DNA of 35,999 nt from a virus. Below are positions 5,381-29,468 of this stretch, one piece after another. Within the stretch, counting starts at the first letter, position 1; each line of letters begins with the position of its first letter. The notes under the pieces were generated by a model, which worked only from the letters and a program-made list of their open reading frames with translations, made no database searches and had not been told where the DNA came from. Made by a program: the position numbers and the translations under genes. The DNA lies in IMG/VR virus record IMGVR_UViG_3300015206_000007, positions 1-35,999 of that record, one strand, 5' to 3'.

Positions 5381-6256
5381 TCAGGCCCTCGCCTCGATGT
5401 CGCGGGAGCGCAGCACGATGCCGTTGCCGGCATTGCCGCGCCAATGTGCCTCCACCCACACGAAGACCGGCTCGACCCGACCGGCAGTCAACAGGCGCAG
5501 ATGGCCGATGACCTGATGCAGGCGAATGCCGTGGCTGTCATTACCAACACGCGATGGCCCGCGGCTTCGTTCTGGTTTTGGCAGCTTCAGCGACACGCGG
5601 TTGAACGAAAGCAGCGGCAGGCGCCCGCGACGAAGGCGAGCCTTCCGAAGTTTCGCCGGCGGCTCATACCCTTTTATCTCGACGGCGCGATGCAGATTCA
5701 ACAGCGCGCAGGCCGCCATGAAGAAGCGCAGATAGTTCGAGGAGATCACCTCAATGAGATCTTCCTTGGAATCAAACGCCGCGTCGACCAAATCGCTGAA
5801 GCTTATTTTCAGCCCCGTCGTCCCGAATTGGTAGTGGGGCAGAGCCGCGAGAAGGATGGGATCCTCACCGCACGCAAAGCAGACAAAGAAGCAAACGCTC
5901 ATGAAACCAGCATCGAGCGATTGCCACCACAGTCCTAAACGCTTGCCTTCGAACGACCATTCGAACCAGCCACATGGAACGGGCGGCTTTGCTATTCGGC
6001 CTGCTATCTCGAAGGAGACGTTGTCCTCAATGATGTTGAAACTGCTCTGAACGACATTCTGATCAAAACTGAACCGCGCCGCCGCTTGCCGGGCCTCGGC
6101 GGCATAGACCGCACCCATGCTCCGATGCGGAAGCATGACGTGATTGCGTTGCCAGGGAAGGCCGAGTGACGTTCGCACACGCTGCAGCAATGACGTCAGA
6201 TCGCCGCCATCAGTATATGGCATCATCGCAAGCAAATCGTCAGCAAGAGATGTCAC
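5381..6256 (-). CDS. Unknown phage protein between tail chaperone and tape measure genes
   Basis: 291 aa, GTG start at 6254-6256. This GTG overlaps the TGA that ends the -1 frameshifted chaperone product (GTGA), good evidence for the start. No family is recognised with certainty. The C-terminal ~50 residues carry a G-H-x-R ... V-W-V-x-A-H-W-R-G pattern that I recall from other alphaproteobacterial phage proteins. The middle contains a Cys/Phe-rich hydrophobic stretch (SVCFFVCFACGED). GC is lower than in neighbouring structural genes. In Mu the chaperone is followed directly by the tape measure gene, so this looks like an inserted cargo gene that has become translationally coupled. Confidence 0.7.
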   Translation of the reverse strand: MTSLADDLLAMMPYTDGGDLTSLLQRVRTSLGLPWQRNHVMLPHRSMGAVYAAEARQAAARFSFDQNVVQSSFNIIEDNVSFEIAGRIAKPPVPCGWFEWSFEGKRLGLWWQSLDAGFMSVCFFVCFACGEDPILLAALPHYQFGTTGLKISFSDLVDAAFDSKEDLIEVISSNYLRFFMAACALLNLHRAVEIKGYEPPAKLRKARLRRGRLPLLSFNRVSLKLPKPERSRGPSRVGNDSHGIRLHQVIGHLRLLTAGRVEPVFVWVEAHWRGNAGNGIVLRSRDIEARA

Positions 6257-6710
6257 TTTATAACCTTATTTTTGAGACCGCGCCCAATCCAGTAGCGAAT
6301 ATCAGACAGCGACAATTTCGCCGCCGATACCGCGTCGACCCAGCGCAGTTCGATCAGGATGTCGACGTGCCGTCGGATTTCTTCGACCGGATCGCGGCCT
6401 CTTGGGAGAGCCTCGACCGGGCCGTGGTAAAAAAATCGAGCACAGCATCTTTCAGCTTGAGGGTGTCGAGAATACCGAACTGCCGCACCAACAGCCCGTC
6501 GAATGGCTCCTGCACCAGGGCCTCGATGTAGCCCCTGATCGCATCGGTGTTTTCCGCCGAGTAGACCACGCTGCCGTCGGTTGCGTAGCCGCGCGAATAT
6601 GGTTCGCCGAACTTCATGATCTCAGCGAATCCGGGCTCGCGCAGCGTCACGCGCGAGGCCGGACTCCCATGGACCATGGCCGGCTTCTCTAGATCAATGG
6701 TGATGGACAT
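6253..6710 (-). CDS. Tail assembly chaperone, -1 frameshift fusion product (gpGT-like)
   Basis: If ribosomes slip back one base at 6429-6435, the first 94 codons join 58 more codons and end at TGA 6253-6255, giving 152 aa. The added tail starts YHGPVEALPRGRD and continues with EEIRRHVDILIELRWVDA and LSLSDIRYWIGRGLKNK. That is a helical segment with normal composition, as in the T part of other phages. The shifted frame is open exactly up to the start of the next gene, and its stop overlaps that GTG start as GTGA. The zero frame instead ends 99 bases earlier with no coupling. This makes the fusion very likely to be the functional second product. Confidence 0.85.
6354..6710 (-). CDS. Tail assembly chaperone, zero-frame product (lambda gpG / Mu gp41 type)
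   Basis: 118 aa from ATG 6710, with AGAGG just upstream as ribosome binding site. It opens MSITIDLEKPAMVHG, then VTLREPGFAEIMKFGEP, typical of the small chaperones that coat the tape measure protein during contractile tail assembly. It lies between the tail tube gene and the tape measure gene (one cargo gene intervenes), the standard position. At codons 92-94 the mRNA reads GAT TTT TTT, a T TTT TTT slippery heptamer, so this product is the unshifted form. Family identity comes from position, size, N-terminal pattern and the frameshift. Confidence 0.85.
   Translation of the reverse strand: MSITIDLEKPAMVHGSPASRVTLREPGFAEIMKFGEPYSRGYATDGSVVYSAENTDAIRGYIEALVQEPFDGLLVRQFGILDTLKLKDAVLDFFTTARSRLSQEAAIRSKKSDGTSTS
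6429..6435 (-). promoter_or_regulatory. Programmed -1 ribosomal frameshift site (T TTT TTT)
   Basis: The - strand reads CTC GAT TTT TTT ACC in the chaperone frame. A seven-T run placed as X XXY YYZ lets both tRNAs re-pair after slipping by one base. Downstream bases TACCACGGCCCGGTCGAGG are GC-rich and may pair with later sequence, but I could not establish a defined stimulatory stem or pseudoknot. Conservation of such sites in tail chaperone genes is established for long-tailed phages. Confidence 0.85.
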
Positions 6711-21389: not shown

Positions 21390-21758
21390 TCAACCCTGCC
21401 GCACGATTAAGCTCACAGCTTGTCTGGTCACGCCCACCAGATTACCGATTGCGACAAGCCGGGCACCATCGCGAAATGCATGCTTGATCGCAGCGTTTCT
21501 CTGAACACCCCCGTCCAATTCCTTTCGGAATTTAGCGAGCGCCGCAACCTCTCGCTCATGCCTTTGTTTTTTCGCTTCCGCGACAAGTTGTCTCCTTCGA
21601 AGCTTCCACTTGCTCGGCCGATCCACATAGGTTCGATTGATCCTGTGCATCCGGCCTATTACCGCATTACGCGTTTTGCCAAGCTTCGCAGCGATTTTAC
21701 TCGCACTCGACGTAGGCCATAGCCGGATGAGTTGCCGGTCTTCATGGTCGGTCCACAT
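21390..21758 (-). CDS. GcrA-like DNA-binding protein with a second C-terminal HTH
   Basis: 122 aa from ATG 21758, chosen because it gives MWTDHEDRQLIRLWPTSSAS, overlaps the NusG-like stop (TGATG), and aligns with GcrA. The N-terminal ~45 residues match GcrA (pattern W-T-x-x-x-x-x-x-L-x-x-L-W, then SASKIAAKLGKTRNAVIGRM). GcrA is the sigma70-associated regulator of alphaproteobacterial cell-cycle genes, acting at CcrM-methylated GANTC sites. The middle is basic and helical. The end (DGARLVAIGNLVGVTRQAVS) reads as another HTH, not GcrA's usual C-terminus. It lies just before the late-gene terminator, so a late-promoter regulator is likely. Base composition is below neighbouring genes. Confidence 0.75.
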   Translation of the reverse strand: MWTDHEDRQLIRLWPTSSASKIAAKLGKTRNAVIGRMHRINRTYVDRPSKWKLRRRQLVAEAKKQRHEREVAALAKFRKELDGGVQRNAAIKHAFRDGARLVAIGNLVGVTRQAVSLIVRQG

Positions 21759-22399
21759 CAAGCACACTCCTCTAGCCCGAGAGCTTTCCGTAGTGTCTGA
21801 TTCCGCCCTTCACTGTCTAGTTCTATCAGATCGTCGAAGGCCGACCATGCACGGGTTGTTATGATCTCGTTGCGCAGATCGGCTTCCGTGATCGGCTTTG
21901 GCTTGGCGGCTTTAGCCGATTTGCGGTTTTTCCAGCGACGTTTCTTTTTCGACCTGCGCTGCACAGGCTCGGGATCAGCAGGCGGGATTTCGATGTAAAT
22001 CGGCCGTTCGCGGTTTTCGACCTTTCGCACGATATCGATTTCATCATCGCTCAACGAGCCTACGATCGTGACGACGCCCGGCGTATCCGCCAACCATCGC
22101 CAATGCTGATCGCTAGGCCACATAAACACGAACAGATAGCCCGAAAACATCGGCGCGCGGCGGCCGATCTTGCGACCGCGCTTGACGATGGTTTCGTCGA
22201 CCTCGGGAATGTAGATCCCGAAGCGATGGCCGGCGAGTTCCTCAGCAACGGAAGTTTGTTCGGAGGCGTAAACCTCGACCACGTACCACCTTGGCGATTT
22301 GCCTTTGACGATTTCAGCATTCCGTGGATCACGCGGCTCGTAAGGCCTAGACAGTTCCGCCACGACTTCCGGCGAGAACGCATCCGACAGCGGTTTCAT
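21758..22399 (-). CDS. NusG/RfaH-like NGN-domain protein, candidate antiterminator
   Basis: 213 aa from ATG 22399 with GGAG upstream. Residues ~37-115 form an NGN domain: PRWYVVEVYASEQTSVAEEL, FGIYIPEVDETIVKRGRKIG, and APMFSGYLFVFMWPSDQHWRW, then PGVVTIVG. NGN proteins clamp RNA polymerase and control pausing or termination. The following ~45 residues are very Lys/Arg-rich (QRRSKKKRRWKNRKSAKAAK), and I see no KOW domain, so interaction with NusE/Rho as in cellular NusG is in doubt. The end is acidic-helical. Its place before a strong terminator and the late operon suggests read-through of late transcription. Confidence 0.85.
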   Translation of the reverse strand: MKPLSDAFSPEVVAELSRPYEPRDPRNAEIVKGKSPRWYVVEVYASEQTSVAEELAGHRFGIYIPEVDETIVKRGRKIGRRAPMFSGYLFVFMWPSDQHWRWLADTPGVVTIVGSLSDDEIDIVRKVENRERPIYIEIPPADPEPVQRRSKKKRRWKNRKSAKAAKPKPITEADLRNEIITTRAWSAFDDLIELDSEGRNQTLRKALGLEECA

Positions 22400-22443
22400 T
22401 CAATAGCTCCAACATCTCGATTTCCCCTCGATTTGCTGGCCGT

Positions 22444-22514
22444 CCGGCTTCCGCCGGTCTCACGTCACGAAACGGTTCCTGCCGAGAACCGTTTTTCTTG
22501 TTCCGATCCGGAAC
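22444..22514. promoter_or_regulatory. Inverted-repeat cluster upstream of the NusG-like gene
   Basis: Three short inverted repeats lie upstream of the start at 22399: CCGGC-TTCC-GCCGG (22444-22457), AACGGTTC-7 nt-GAACCGTT (22471-22493), and GTTCCG-ATC-CGGAAC (22500-22514). The second is followed on the + strand by a T-run (22492-22496) and resembles a + strand terminator, although no + strand gene precedes it. On the - strand they could be operator or leader hairpins for NusG expression. I could not assign -35/-10 boxes. Confidence 0.4.
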
Positions 22515-22523
22515 ATGAAACTT

Positions 22524-22780
22524 TGGGAGGGTTGGGAGGATTGATTTTGCTTTTAAAAATCCTCCCGTTCATAAAACCCTTGGTAATCAATGGTTTCTTT
22601 AATTAATGGGAGGGTTGGGAGGATTGGGAGGGTTTTTCATGGTGATGTCCCGTGCGCGCCCGCGCACACGCGCATGTAGGTATAGAAAAACGCTCCCAAT
22701 TGTCCCAACCCTCCCAAACGCAACGAATTCAATGGCTTAATTTTTCGCAATCCTCCCATTCTTGGGAGGGTCGGGAGGAT
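22524..22780. repeat. Array of twelve 9-bp iterons, candidate replication origin
   Basis: The unit is TGGGAGG(G/A)T. Direct copies start at 22524, 22533, 22607, 22616, 22625, 22763 and 22772; inverted ones at 22559, 22690, 22699, 22708 and 22750. They come in tandem runs with an exact 9-base period and are separated by AT-rich stretches (for example 22545-22559, 22595-22606, 22734-22747). Between them is a GC hairpin GTGCGCG-CC-CGCGCAC (22652-22667). The array starts at the stop codon of the P4/D5-type helicase gene. Iterons plus AT-rich DNA next to an SF3 replicase is typical of phage origins such as P4. The trimer at 22607-22633 also fits a G-quadruplex motif. Confidence 0.65.
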
Positions 22781-24948
22781 CAGAACTCGACATCGCCCGC
22801 ATCCTTCGCTCCTTTTTCCTCGTCCCGATCGACCCGGATCGGGTTTCCATTGCTGTCGACGAAGTCGTTCACGCTGCGCGTCAGCTTGACATCGAGGAAC
22901 CACATCACGCTCGATTGCATGCGCATGTAGCCGCGCTCTTCCATCGCCATCGAGAAGCCTTTTTGTTTCCACGCGGTCTCGCCAGATGATTTGCACCAGG
23001 CTTCAAACACCTGGTAGAGCACGCTCGACTGCACCCGATCGCTCGGGCTTTCGACGAGACATGCCGATAGAAAACGCCCGAGCGGATCCGACGCGCTGCG
23101 ATATTGCGCGGTCGCGGCCGTCACGGCGTCCGGCTCGATCAATCCCTTGTCGCACCACAGTCGCAAGCCATCGAGCAGCCGGTTGAGAATGCCGCTCGCC
23201 TCCGCGCGCAGTTTTTCCGCCAGATGAATGTCGCGCTCTTCCTTCGGAATGAAGACGTTGAAGGGCACCAGCCTCAAGCGTCGCCAGATGCCTTCATCGG
23301 CGCCGGAGATCGTGGGGCGGTAATTGCCGGAGATCGTCAATTTGAACTGCGGATAGAACTTGAAGAAATCGCGATTGAGGTGGCGCGCCTGGATCGGCTC
23401 GCCGCCGGTGACGAGCTTGACCATGGCCTCAGCAAGCCGCGAATTCTTTTCCGGCTCCGAGGTGCGCAGCATGCGCACGCCGGGCAGGATCGCGAGATCC
23501 GGCGTGGCTTGTCCCGCGTTGCGCGATTTGCCGTGGTCGAGGAAGGTCTCGATCGGGACCGTCTCGCCGTAGTCGCCGGCGACATAGCTGACCGCGTCGA
23601 CCAGCACCGATTTGCCGTTCGAGCCCTTGCCGTACAGAAACGCCAGCTTTTGTTCGGAGACATCGCCGGTCAGCGACAGGCCGAGCCATTGATGCAGGAA
23701 CACGCGCATCGCGTCCTGTGGCTGTACCCGGGCGATGAACTTGTCATAGTCCGGGCAAACGGCTTTCGGATCGTAATCGACCGGCGAGAGCTTGGTGATT
23801 AGGTCGTCCGGATCATGGCTACGGAAACTGACATAATCCTCGCCGTCGCTTTTCCGCGCAACGACCAGCGTGCCGTTGTTGACGTTGACCTTCATCTTGT
23901 CGGCATCGAGCTTTTCGACGCCGATCGCGAAGTAAGGTGCGCCGCGCTTGGACAATGCGCCGAGCTTGTTGAGGGCTTCCGAGGATCTGCCCCAGCTCGC
24001 GATCTTGTCGGAATAGAGCAGGCCCTTCTTCTCATCAAAGACGAAGTCGCGCGCGCCGGTGTCCGTGCCCTTGATGCCGCTCGATCGAACCTCGTAGGCT
24101 TCGTCCTGGATCGCCCGCACCGTGTCGTGCTCGGCGATCTTGACCAGATCATCGGCGCCGTCGCGGCTCCAGCGCTTGCCGTCCCAGGCGAGCCAGCCCA
24201 GCGCCGGGCACCACAATAGCTTGTCGAGATAGCGCTCGCGAAAGCGCTCAGCGTTGCCGAGGTCGGTGAGCGGGAAAAAAGCGAGCCGCATGTTGCGACG
24301 TCGTTCGGTTTCCACAGCGCGTGGCGGCTTGCGGCGCCCCCCTGCACCCCCCGCAGCGGAAGTTTCCGGCGACAATGCTCCCGTTTGGGAGGGTTGCTCC
24401 GATTCGCCCCCTTCGTCGGGGGGCGCGGGGGCGGCGGCAAAAAAAGACGACGACGGCGAGCCCTCAGAAGAATCCGGAGCATCCACGTCGGCCGAGGGAG
24501 AGGAAGGATCAGTGTCGGCCGCTTCGCGCGGCCGTCTCTCTGAGTGAGGTGCGCGAAGCGTGGCTTGCGCCACGCCGCGCACCTCCGATAAATCGCGAGG
24601 CTGTTTCTTGCCGAGCTTCACGCCGGCTGCGATCGCCGCTTTCACCGCCTTGAGGCCATCGTCGCGGATCAGCTGGCAGGCACTAGCGGCATCCTCGAGG
24701 GCGGCCTTGGCAAAGCCCTCATGCAGCGCGCCGGCGCCGACGAGCTGGCCCAGGCGCTGCGCGGCGCCCGACAGCACCACGCCCCGCCCATCGCCCTCGG
24801 AGCTGCGCACCAGCGCGATCGCGGCGTCGAGCTCGGCCAGGCCGAACTTGCGGATGGCTTCCGCTCGAGCTGCAGGATCCTCGACCACGTCGACGAACAC
24901 CGGCGCGGAATCGACGATCGACAGGATGGCATTTGCGCCGACGGTCAT
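22780..24948 (-). CDS. P4/D5-type primase-helicase (SF3 helicase)
   Basis: 722 aa. Residues ~220-400 are a D5 N-terminal-type domain (LLWCPALGWLAWDGKRWSRD, later SFRSHDPDDLITKLSPVDYD). The SF3 helicase follows, with Walker A GKGSNGKS at 440-447, then VPIETFLDH, DLAILPGVRM, a Walker B-like RTSEPEKNSRL, and KLTISGNYRPTISGADEGIW. The latter is typical of phage/plasmid P4-family initiator helicases. The first ~210 residues (Ala-rich, then an acidic/Ser/Pro linker) have no recognised domain. The CHC2/Toprim primase is a separate gene at 25475-26698. It would unwind at the iteron array just downstream. ATG at 24948 has a weak ribosome site. Confidence 0.92.
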   Translation of the reverse strand: MTVGANAILSIVDSAPVFVDVVEDPAARAEAIRKFGLAELDAAIALVRSSEGDGRGVVLSGAAQRLGQLVGAGALHEGFAKAALEDAASACQLIRDDGLKAVKAAIAAGVKLGKKQPRDLSEVRGVAQATLRAPHSERRPREAADTDPSSPSADVDAPDSSEGSPSSSFFAAAPAPPDEGGESEQPSQTGALSPETSAAGGAGGRRKPPRAVETERRRNMRLAFFPLTDLGNAERFRERYLDKLLWCPALGWLAWDGKRWSRDGADDLVKIAEHDTVRAIQDEAYEVRSSGIKGTDTGARDFVFDEKKGLLYSDKIASWGRSSEALNKLGALSKRGAPYFAIGVEKLDADKMKVNVNNGTLVVARKSDGEDYVSFRSHDPDDLITKLSPVDYDPKAVCPDYDKFIARVQPQDAMRVFLHQWLGLSLTGDVSEQKLAFLYGKGSNGKSVLVDAVSYVAGDYGETVPIETFLDHGKSRNAGQATPDLAILPGVRMLRTSEPEKNSRLAEAMVKLVTGGEPIQARHLNRDFFKFYPQFKLTISGNYRPTISGADEGIWRRLRLVPFNVFIPKEERDIHLAEKLRAEASGILNRLLDGLRLWCDKGLIEPDAVTAATAQYRSASDPLGRFLSACLVESPSDRVQSSVLYQVFEAWCKSSGETAWKQKGFSMAMEERGYMRMQSSVMWFLDVKLTRSVNDFVDSNGNPIRVDRDEEKGAKDAGDVEF

Positions 24949-25474: not shown

Positions 25475-26698
25475 TCATGGCGCCGCCCCCTCCTCGCGCA
25501 GCACGTCATTGAAATCTCGCCCCGCCGGCGCGAACGCGATCCGGATTCGCCGGCCCTCTTTCGCGTAGCGCCGCGCCGCGCGCTCCATCGCGCACTCGGT
25601 CAATAGCTGTTCGCTGTCGCCGTCGCCGAGCAGGATCAGCTCTTCGACGCTGTCGGGAATCGACAGGCCTTGATCGTCCGGATCGGGATAGCGATCGGGC
25701 ACCGTCATCGCGCGGCCGTTCGGCCGCTTCAGGGTCGGATGGTTGATGGTTTTGGTGGCGCGGCCGGCGAGATTGCCGAGGTCGCCGGCGGCCCAGAACG
25801 CCATGTCGGAGATAGGCCGGCCCGCCGCCTGGTGCGCGGTCCATACCGCGAGCACCGTCTCGATGCCCTCGCCGATCACCAGGCGCCGCGGCGTCGGCAA
25901 TTTTACGATCGCGATATGCGCTCCAGTTTTCGATCCGCGCATCTTCTTCGCGTTCAAGATCTCGCCGGTCGCGGGGTCCGTCAGCTCGATCTTGCGGAAC
26001 AGCCGCAATGTCTGCTGCTTGGCCCCGACGAATTCAAGCCGCGCGCCATAATCTTCCAGCCATGTCATGTGCAAACCGCCAAACGTCCCGTCGGCGCGAA
26101 TGAAGGCGGCCAGCATTGCCGGCCCCGAATGGATCTTGATCGGCGATTTGCGGCCGCGCTCGTCGACGCTTTCGCCATGGAAATACGGCGCGCTCGGCAG
26201 ATAGCGGATCCCCGGGCACCGCGCCGGCAGCTGCAACCCGCGGCCGGCGAGATACGCCTCGACCGGCGTGCCGGCGAGATCCTTCACCGCGGCCTCCCAG
26301 GTGTGCCAAAGCCGCTTGCGCTCGGCCTCGCGGTACCCCACAGCGGTTTTCTCGCGCGCCAGGCGCTTGCGCTCGCGTTCATCGAACAGCTTCCCTGCGG
26401 CCTCCGGATCGGGCGTAGCGCGGCCGCCGAGCCGCTCGATCGCGCCTAAGAAATCGCAACCGTCGACCAGCTGCACCAGGCGAATGACGTCGCCGCCATC
26501 AGGGCAGACCGCACATACCCAGCTTTCGCCATTGTCGAGGATCTCAAAGCGCTGCGAGGTTGCGCGGCCGCCGCAGATCGGGCATGGGCCGACCAGGCAC
26601 CCGCCGGCGCGGCGCAGCTTGACGTAGCCGCCGGCAACGTCAGCCAGTGAATTGCGCGCCTTGATGTCGTCGAGATCCTGCGGGGTGAAGCGGCTCAA
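25475..26698 (-). CDS. CHC2 zinc-finger / Toprim primase
   Basis: 407 aa. The start is TTG at 26698, which overlaps the previous stop as TTGA and is needed to give SRFTPQDLDDIKARNSLADV. A DnaG-type zinc finger has C39-x2-C42 (GPCPICGG) and C62-x2-C65 (VCAVCPDGGD). Residues ~140-215 contain VEAYLAGRGLQLP, then SGPAMLAAFI and FGGLHMTWL, typical of the Toprim-containing primases of phages and plasmids. The Toprim core follows with GEGIE at 276-280 and LGDGDS at 357-362. It would make RNA primers alongside the SF3 helicase encoded next in the replication block. Confidence 0.9.
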   Translation of the reverse strand: MSRFTPQDLDDIKARNSLADVAGGYVKLRRAGGCLVGPCPICGGRATSQRFEILDNGESWVCAVCPDGGDVIRLVQLVDGCDFLGAIERLGGRATPDPEAAGKLFDERERKRLAREKTAVGYREAERKRLWHTWEAAVKDLAGTPVEAYLAGRGLQLPARCPGIRYLPSAPYFHGESVDERGRKSPIKIHSGPAMLAAFIRADGTFGGLHMTWLEDYGARLEFVGAKQQTLRLFRKIELTDPATGEILNAKKMRGSKTGAHIAIVKLPTPRRLVIGEGIETVLAVWTAHQAAGRPISDMAFWAAGDLGNLAGRATKTINHPTLKRPNGRAMTVPDRYPDPDDQGLSIPDSVEELILLGDGDSEQLLTECAMERAARRYAKEGRRIRIAFAPAGRDFNDVLREEGAAP

Positions 26699-27548: not shown

Positions 27549-29468
27549 TCAGCTGGCCTTGCGCTTTTTCGCCGTCGCTTTCTTTGCGGCCTTTTTTGCC
27601 GGAGCGGCCTTGCGCGCCGGCTCCTTCTTGCGATCGGCCGGTTTTGCCGCGGGAAGCGCCTTCCCCTTCGCGACCGGAGGGCCGTCATAGCCCTTGGCGC
27701 GCAGCGGCAGCGGCAGCCAGCCGGTCGACGGCACGTTGGCGATCGCGAACGCGACGATGTCGAGCTTTGTGTTCTTGGCTTGCTGACGCGCCAGATCCGG
27801 ACCGAGCGCCTCCTCGATGGCTTTGAGGTTGAGCATCTTGCTGACGCCGGCAAAATAATCCTTGGCGTCGAAGGCACCGCGCGCCGCCGCGTTGAACGCT
27901 TTAGCGTCGATTGCATTGCAGATCGACATCGGCCCGTCGCGCTTGTCGGCGGCGTCTAGCGACGAGCCCTGGAAATCGAGCGCGTTGGCCGCGAGCTGCG
28001 TCAGCAGCGCGATGCGTTCGGCCGGCTTGAGGCGCTGGGCGAGCGGCAGGGCCTTTTCCATGTCTTCCGAGCCCAGGAGACCACGCCCGTCGCGGCTGCC
28101 GATGCCGCTGACTGACACCTTGACGCCGCAATCGGCATAGCAGCCAAAGCCGGCGATCAGGATCGAGAGCGCCAACTGCTCATCCTGGATGATTGCGGTC
28201 GCCGCGGCTTTTGTCAGCTGCAGCGAAAGACGTTGGGTAAGCGCCTGGGAAATATCCTCTTCGTCCGCGTCAGCCGGCGTCACGGGCTTCGTCGACTTTG
28301 CCGGCTTAGCGCTGGAGTCGTCGGGCGCCGGCGACTTCGCCTCTGCCGGTCGTTTGACGCCGTAGAGAATAACAAGGGAGCCATCCTCGATGTCGATGAT
28401 GCAACCGGTTTGTTTCTTTTTCTTGGCATCGAAGCTGCGGGCCCGGGCGGCATTGTCGATCGCCTCGAGGTCCGCCTGCAGCTTTTCCAGCTTTTCTTCG
28501 TCGTCCTGTAAATAAACTGCTTCAGCATCATCGAGTACTTCGATCTCGGCTCGCAGTTTGATGGCGCGCTCTTCTTCATCGCCTTCATAGAGGATCTCTT
28601 TCGGCTGCGATCGCGGCCACCATTGCGCGCCATGGGGCAGGTCGGACTCGATCTCGGCCCAGGCCCAACCGTCGGCTTTCAGACGCTCGCACTCGGCATC
28701 GAGCGCGCGCCGTGCCATTTGCTTGAGCAAGGTTTCGTCGCTGATGATATGCGAGTTGCCAAACAAATCCTCAGTGACGATGCCGCCGGCCGCACGGTAG
28801 GCATCAGCGCCGACATAGCCGAGCAGTTGGGCTACCTTCTCGTCGACGCCTTCGGCCCCGAGTTCGCGCTTAACATAGCTCTCGAAGATCGTGCCGCCTT
28901 TCGAAAGCTTGCCGTAGACCTTGTCCTGCGTCTTGTGATCGAGGCCGAGCGTGAACGCCTTGGCAATGTCTGCCTTGATCGTTCCCTCGCGCCAGGCGTC
29001 GCGGATCTTCGGCGAAAGGCGCCCGAGCGCGAGCGCCTGGCGCACTTCCTTCTCGGTCATGCCGTACTGGCGCGCGATCTCCTCATGGGTCTTGCCGTGC
29101 TCCTCGAGCCGCGCGAAGGCCTCGTATTGATCGACCGGATGCAGCTGCCGCGCCGTGATCGCCGTCGTCAGCGAAAACTCGAATGCCTTGGTCTCGTCGA
29201 TCTCATGCAGCGTGCAGCCGATCGGCTGGCTCGAGTCCGCGCCATAGATCATGTGGAACGCTGCCAGGCGCCGGTTGCCGTTGCTGACCGAATAGAACTG
29301 ATCGTCGAATTTTTTGACGATCAGGTCCTCGATCTGGCCGTTGGCATGAAGATTCGCGGCCAGCGCCTCGATGCCGTCGAGCCGGCCGGCGACGCGGGCA
29401 TTGATGCCGGCACCGTCTTCCTGGCCGAATTTTAGGCGGTTGAGCGGAACGTCGATATGCATGGTCAT
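27549..29468 (-). CDS. ParB-domain DNA-binding protein, large plasmid-type
   Basis: 639 aa. The N-terminal ~100 residues have the ParB/sulfiredoxin-type core: IEALAANLHANGQIEDLIVK, then FYSVSNGNRRLAAFHMIYGA. An HTH follows at ~130-155 (THEEIARQYGMTEKEVRQAL). The middle is a long mixed region. The extreme C-terminus is a histone-H1-like KxAxKKA tail (RKAAPAKKAAKKATAKKR), probably for non-specific DNA binding. Such ~640-700 aa ParBs occur on rhizobial plasmids and integrated elements. No adjacent parA exists; the only ParA-like ATPase is in the tail operon. It overlaps the gene upstream by ATGA. Confidence 0.85.
   Translation of the reverse strand: MTMHIDVPLNRLKFGQEDGAGINARVAGRLDGIEALAANLHANGQIEDLIVKKFDDQFYSVSNGNRRLAAFHMIYGADSSQPIGCTLHEIDETKAFEFSLTTAITARQLHPVDQYEAFARLEEHGKTHEEIARQYGMTEKEVRQALALGRLSPKIRDAWREGTIKADIAKAFTLGLDHKTQDKVYGKLSKGGTIFESYVKRELGAEGVDEKVAQLLGYVGADAYRAAGGIVTEDLFGNSHIISDETLLKQMARRALDAECERLKADGWAWAEIESDLPHGAQWWPRSQPKEILYEGDEEERAIKLRAEIEVLDDAEAVYLQDDEEKLEKLQADLEAIDNAARARSFDAKKKKQTGCIIDIEDGSLVILYGVKRPAEAKSPAPDDSSAKPAKSTKPVTPADADEEDISQALTQRLSLQLTKAAATAIIQDEQLALSILIAGFGCYADCGVKVSVSGIGSRDGRGLLGSEDMEKALPLAQRLKPAERIALLTQLAANALDFQGSSLDAADKRDGPMSICNAIDAKAFNAAARGAFDAKDYFAGVSKMLNLKAIEEALGPDLARQQAKNTKLDIVAFAIANVPSTGWLPLPLRAKGYDGPPVAKGKALPAAKPADRKKEPARKAAPAKKAAKKATAKKRKAS

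Follow-up and report, generated by a model that had tools for sequence, protein, structure and literature searches.

An iteron array behind a P4-family helicase gene as a likely phage replication origin

Results

We identified an array of short iterons directly behind the gene for a P4-family SF3 helicase in a 35,999-bp virus contig from IMG/VR, the whole of which is called the window here. We observed directly the array, the conservation of its place and dyad plan, and the joint variation of its word with residue 681 of the helicase. We consider it very likely that the array is the replication origin of the phage, or the site at which its initiator is loaded, and that the SF3 helicase whose gene lies just upstream reads it. 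An earlier note on this DNA had proposed a phage origin here, and this remains the most likely reading of the sequence, supported by the P4-family helicase, by the position of the array in relatives and by the joint variation of iteron word and residue 681.

Structure of the array

Twelve 9-bp units of the GGGAGG type fill positions 22524-22780, between the helicase stop codon and a NusG-like gene. All twelve units described in the earlier note were located in the letters, seven on the plus and five on the minus strand, and the exact 9-base register that it reported holds for the tandem members. The array and its neighbouring genes are laid out as follows.

21758..22399, minus strand: NusG-family antiterminator, next gene downstream of the array (neighbour only)
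22524, 22533, 22607, 22616, 22625, 22763, 22772: iteron starts, plus strand
22559, 22690, 22699, 22708, 22750: iteron starts, minus strand
22524..22541, plus strand: outer iteron pair TGGGAGGGT TGGGAGGAT
22559..22567, minus strand: single outer iteron CGGGAGGAT
22568..22606: AT-rich segment from the outer iterons to arm b, GC about 0.38-0.40
22607..22633, plus strand: core dyad arm b, three tandem iterons TGGGAGGGT TGGGAGGAT TGGGAGGGT (<<< in helicase sense)
22634..22689: central dyad spacer, 56 bp
22661..22678, minus strand: strictly alternating purine-pyrimidine tract of 18 nt, TACATGCGCGTGTGCGCG
22690..22716, minus strand: core dyad arm a, three tandem iterons TGGGAGGGT TGGGACAAT TGGGAGCGT, two of them degenerate
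22717..22749: AT-rich segment, GC about 0.40-0.48
22750..22758, minus strand: outer iteron TGGGAGGAT
22763..22780, plus strand: outer iteron pair TGGGAGGGT CGGGAGGAT, its last base shared with the helicase stop codon
22780..24948, minus strand: P4-family SF3 primase/helicase, 722 aa, proposed iteron-binding initiator
22876..23094, minus strand: predicted C-terminal winged-helix domain, about residues 619-691
22906..22908, minus strand: Val681 codon, in the wing turn; the residue co-varies with base 3 of the iteron core
25475..26698, minus strand: CHC2/Toprim DnaG-like primase, a separate gene in the helicase operon

Read from the stop codon in the sense of the helicase (minus strand), the units run << > ... 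>>> (centre) <<< ... > <<. The last copy had been placed at the helicase stop, and unit 22772-22780 does overlap the final base of that codon (TGA, 22782-22780). The exact hexamer is kept in 10 of the 12 units; the degenerate ones start at 22690 (TGGGAGCGT) and 22699 (TGGGACAAT). Exact GGGAGG or CCTCCC occurs 10 times in these 257 bp against an expectation of 0.11, calculated from the 15 copies in the other 35.7 kb, and exact TGGGAGG occurs eight times in 600 bp against at most four in 30 shuffles. A dyad scan of the window returned a gap of 56 with complementary bases at 24 of 27 arm positions. No second array was found across the window, in which the remaining matches are single and scattered. 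The 83-bp spacing of the starts at 22524, 22607 and 22690, also reported previously, is real in the window but is no invariant of the family, as spacer lengths vary in relatives.

The assignment of the neighbouring gene to the P4-type SF3 helicases was borne out by a score of 262.2 bits against TIGR01613 (cut-off 108.7), and the protein also matches D5_N (74.6, cut-off 22.4) and Pox_D5 (28.2, cut-off 21.4). It carries no primase domain of its own. A ParB-like protein of 639 aa (phrog_7783; window 27549-29468) is encoded in the same replication operon. On the other side, terminase genes lie about 3 kb downstream of the array, past the NusG paralogue. Two small elements stand between the array and the NusG-like gene. 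One is a terminator-like hairpin of 10 pairs at 22469-22495, and such hairpins recur at the same site in relatives with differing stem sequences. The other is the short element CCAGCAAATCGAGGGGAAATCGAGATGTTGG (22404-22441, minus strand) just upstream of the NusG-like gene, which is near-identical in many relatives; it could fold as a small hairpin and is possibly a leader of the NusG paralogue.

The array in related phages

Related phages and prophages, well over a hundred of them, have the same layout behind this gene. In 13 IMG/VR relatives with helicases 64-80% identical to that of the window, the array again separates the helicase gene from the next gene downstream. Further loci were fetched by helicase alignment, 80 each from bacterial genomes and viral contigs, and arrays were found in them by de novo 7-mer counts in the 600 bp past the helicase stop codon. 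Most alphaproteobacterial loci contain arrays with a spacing of 8-11 bp, the mode being 9. The iteron word varies by lineage: GGGAGG is found mostly in Rhizobiales and GGAAGG mostly in sphingomonads, while other loci use GCAAGG, GGATAG, TGGAGC, GAGGGT, GGACCT, GGGACG and more.

Arrow maps of these loci revealed a common core plan of three direct iterons, a spacer and three inverted iterons, with outer copies that vary. This dyad was called strictly in 34 of 70 non-redundant loci, with a median of 68 bp from a3 to b1 across the spacer (interquartile range 65-72); the full 3+3 dyad fails the strict scan in the other 36, although the plan is the same in looser maps. An ungapped scan for 27-bp dyads, which underestimates arrays with 9/10-bp spacing, gave a median of 20 versus 17 in controls, and 71 of 159 loci exceeded the 99th percentile of the controls. 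Sequenced phages whose helicases are only 34-38% identical (Nostoc phage Nsp-JY21, Pseudanabaena phage Pan4, Paracoccus phage Pthi1, RcapNL, phi105 and mycobacteriophage Findley) follow the same plan with words of their own, as judged by reading, and the archaeal virus Blf4 probably does so too. Very distant helicases, for example from Firmicutes and Deltaproteobacteria, gave mixed results, and RR1-A (L189) and Joemato (L192) have no array directly past the helicase gene. No direct DNA similarity was found in named phages.

Similar arrays far from replication genes, which the earlier note had named as evidence against an origin, were sought and none was seen; in relatives the array lies directly behind the helicase gene, and each of ten contigs scanned has tandem iteron pairs at a single place. 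One relative (L006) has an extra ORF between helicase stop and array, and the array is still present. This ORF (6213-6674) encodes 153 aa that look like a GIY-YIG nuclease by eye, with no NCBIfam match. In RcapNL (L187, 4150-4470) the array has the helicase on one side and the annotated cohesive end on the other, which would make origin and cos neighbours in that phage.

The gene beyond the array is more variable. A NusG/RfaH/UpxY/LoaP-like antiterminator stands between array and late genes in many Rhizobiales phages, a rough count since one seed was a spurious ORF and the window's own NusG was not scored in it. In sphingomonad phages a DUF6362 protein takes its place, and the NusG-like gene is not conserved beside the array in other lineages.

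Co-variation of the iteron word with helicase residue 681

Helicases were sorted into classes by iteron word and every alignment column was tested for its association with class. In a first alignment, residue 681 was the top column among 560 aligned residues. With a more careful alignment of 70 non-redundant helicases, Gly681 was found in 29 of 29 proteins from GGAAGG loci and in none of the 41 from GGGAGG loci, 28 of which have Val681. A tree built without the C-terminal domain requires at least four independent changes between the two classes. Four loci with Gly681 (L036, L129, L124 and L114) nest among GGGAGG phages in the helicase tree, and at the other top-ranked columns they mostly match these GGGAGG kin. 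Column 681 is the only one of about 330 that separates the classes perfectly with all four isolated switchers following, and in none of the others do all four switch. Ten more loci with other words, some of which have common ancestry, obey the same rule: A as the third core base goes with Gly681, and G with Val681. All four GCAAGG loci also have Glu678 in common.

The last 170 residues of the window helicase were modelled with AF2 from 42 related sequences (mean pLDDT 85). The modelled winged helix matched the DNA-binding domain of RFX1 (1DP7) best, with a Z score of 9.4, followed by RFX5 at 9.2 and the origin-binding domain of phage P4 (1KA8) at 8.3 over 79 residues and 2.8 A; the C-terminal domain of the helicase is thus predicted to fold like the P4 domain. 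In the model, residue 681 (model residue 129) falls in the turn that joins strands 124-126 and 130-137, which would be the wing. RFX1 contacts DNA through its wing. Because residue 681 tracks the iteron word and lies in the predicted wing of a winged helix like that of P4, the window helicase very probably reads the iterons. The co-variation fits an initiator whose C-terminal domain sets iteron specificity, and a one-residue specificity switch would be new for such origins.

The spacer between the core arms

The earlier note described AT-rich segments and a GC hairpin between the clusters. The AT-rich flanks (GC 0.33-0.40), which sit outside the core arms, and the GC-rich centre (70% G+C at 22640-22679) are real, but the potential to form a hairpin is not conserved. 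As a conserved property of the centre the hairpin was ruled out (mean z 0.07 relative to shuffles in which the purine/pyrimidine pattern is preserved). Since hairpin energy does not differ from that of these shuffles, it is alternation and not self-pairing that is conserved. In the window, alternation picks up again past a GG and continues to about 22651. Among 94 non-redundant spacers the longest strictly alternating run averaged 16.7 nt versus 6.2 nt in shuffled sequences, and it beat all 100 shuffles in 59 of them; the mean is inflated because only spacers with runs of at least 8 had been admitted to the set. Unfiltered, the median run was 11 in spacers (upper quartile 18) versus 6 in control stretches (maximum 12). 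The tracts of relatives are often GC-rich and dominated by CG and CA/TG steps, with TA rare. The longest, in locus L032, alternates strictly over 44 nt at about 160-205 bp past the helicase stop.

The alternating tract resembles Z-DNA-forming sequence, and we describe it as Z-DNA-prone on the basis of its base pattern. The tracts might also have arisen by expansion of short dinucleotide repeats. We tentatively suggest, as a conjecture more likely to prove wrong than right, that the arrays represent an origin variant of their own. In it, a Z-DNA-prone tract, not an AT-rich element, would lie between two hexamer-loading triplets, and a B-to-Z (left-handed) transition would store or set off the local unwinding required for opening.

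Discussion

In the mechanism that we propose, the C-terminal winged helix of the helicase would dock on each 9-bp iteron, and three direct plus three inverted iterons, about 65-75 bp apart from start to start, would load two hexamers face to face. ATP-driven remodelling would then open the spacer, the separate Toprim primase would prime the exposed strands, and forks would depart in both directions. The binding itself, the loading of double hexamers, melting and the onset of synthesis are steps that we infer. GC skew, a check suggested by the earlier note, was flat and gave no usable origin signal in the window; it is uninformative and confounded because the genes lie mostly on one strand. Closed phage-plasmids with such a helicase (pP88_h and p5) were considered as proof of autonomous replication and dropped; they also carry partition and HTH replication-type genes, and so do not prove that the helicase alone sustains a plasmid. 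The Phaeobacter inhibens phage-like plasmid pP88_h (L199) additionally encodes an autoinducer-binding regulator and an acyl-homoserine-lactone synthase at 35384-36617.

Several observations count against an origin: the conserved centre is GC-rich and not AT-rich, the array beside the P4 alpha gene is annotated as crr and not as ori, GC skew is flat, and 36 of 70 loci fail the strict dyad scan. It is conceivable, though unlikely, that the helicase binds the array as a helper or loading site required in cis while strands are opened elsewhere, as in P4. There, the type I iterons of crr (>> <<, 9-bp spacing) come immediately 3' of alpha, and the annotated ori is about 4.5 kb away. Against this, no second iteron cluster was found in the window or in nine related contigs, records that may be incomplete, and the relatives of the system in SaPI, PICI, SCC and pRN1 have a single site 3' of the gene.

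We regard it as quite improbable that the inverted repeats act as transcribed RNA, forming a structured leader or terminator that controls the NusG-like gene. In its favour, folding of the sense strand is much stronger than that of shuffled sequence (z -8.0), and many Rhizobiales phages have a NusG paralogue next to the array. Yet the array stays when the downstream gene changes to DUF6362, HTH or unknown proteins, and the reading as a NusG leader was rejected on the ground that this gene is not conserved with the array. Dyad partners are barely better matched than non-partners (1.65 vs 1.95 mismatches of 9), the best Rfam match lies far below the gathering score and is not credible, and the iteron word follows helicase residue 681. 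A packaging (cos/pac) site or a transcription operator for terminase or another phage protein is the least probable function of all: the terminase genes about 3 kb downstream, the annotated cos end beyond the RcapNL array and the ParB-like protein encoded at 27549-29468 would suit it, whereas co-variation is with the C-terminal domain of the helicase and the array keeps its place at the helicase stop, also in phage-plasmids and in non-alphaproteobacterial phages.

With the array read as an origin, its kind is already known from SaPI/PICI satellites, SCCmec and the archaeal plasmid pRN1, and P4 crr has the same position. What is new is its presence in full-size phages and, often, a GC-rich Z-DNA-prone tract in place of an AT-rich core. 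Our data suggest that a layout said to occur only in phage-inducible islands is common among ordinary temperate phages; origins could therefore be located in many uncharacterised phages and prophages from the DNA just past the helicase gene. One wing residue tracking one iteron base would amount to a natural specificity code, and the question arises why a Z-DNA-prone tract is kept where other such origins have an AT-rich element. A literature search, mostly without subscription journals, found no paper on the array in alphaproteobacterial phages.

Comparison with known systems

The closest parallels are the SaPI/PICI origins (PMC6092414, PMC7581432). These too lie directly 3' of the gene for an SF3 initiator, have short iterons in two sets on either side of a central region, use words that differ between elements, and are recognised via the C-terminal domain of the initiator, a feature indicated here by co-variation only. 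SaPI Rep and SCCmec Cch2 each use the C-terminal domain to bind iterons located 3' of the gene that encodes them (PMC7581432). The PICI centre is described as AT-rich, whereas here it is often a GC-rich alternating purine-pyrimidine tract, and arrays of the window type occur in full-size phages, unforeseen by the exclusivity to PICIs stated in one paper on these islands (SaPI/PICI sources: PMC6092414, PMC7581432). Because the AT-rich centre is missing, we do not file the array as a SaPI/PICI-type origin, though by analogy it would work like one.

Phage P4 crr resembles the array in having iterons 3' of a P4-family helicase gene, direct pairs at 9-bp spacing and inverted partners, and the P4 alpha protein has a related winged-helix DNA-binding domain (1KA8), predicted in our case. 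P4 crr differs as a duplicated 120-bp repeat with an AT-rich centre that acts with a separate ori, against the one array found here. The origin of the Sulfolobus plasmid pRN1 is a 100-bp stem-loop 3' of the replication gene and is required for replication, and a like stem-loop was proposed for Bordetella phage BIP-1 (PMC4234260). Both resemble the array as a dyad of about 100 bp (21-nt stem, 58-nt loop) that closely follows a primase-SF3-winged-helix gene on its 3' side; their authors found no iterons and proposed a stem-loop, whereas here the dyad consists of iteron triplets whose pairing is not strict. In the putative origin of SCCmec Cch2 (PMC7581432), the C-terminal domain of a D5-type helicase binds direct repeats 3' of its own gene, but these are only three 5-nt AAGTG iterons, in a staphylococcal element with a polymerase-based primase.
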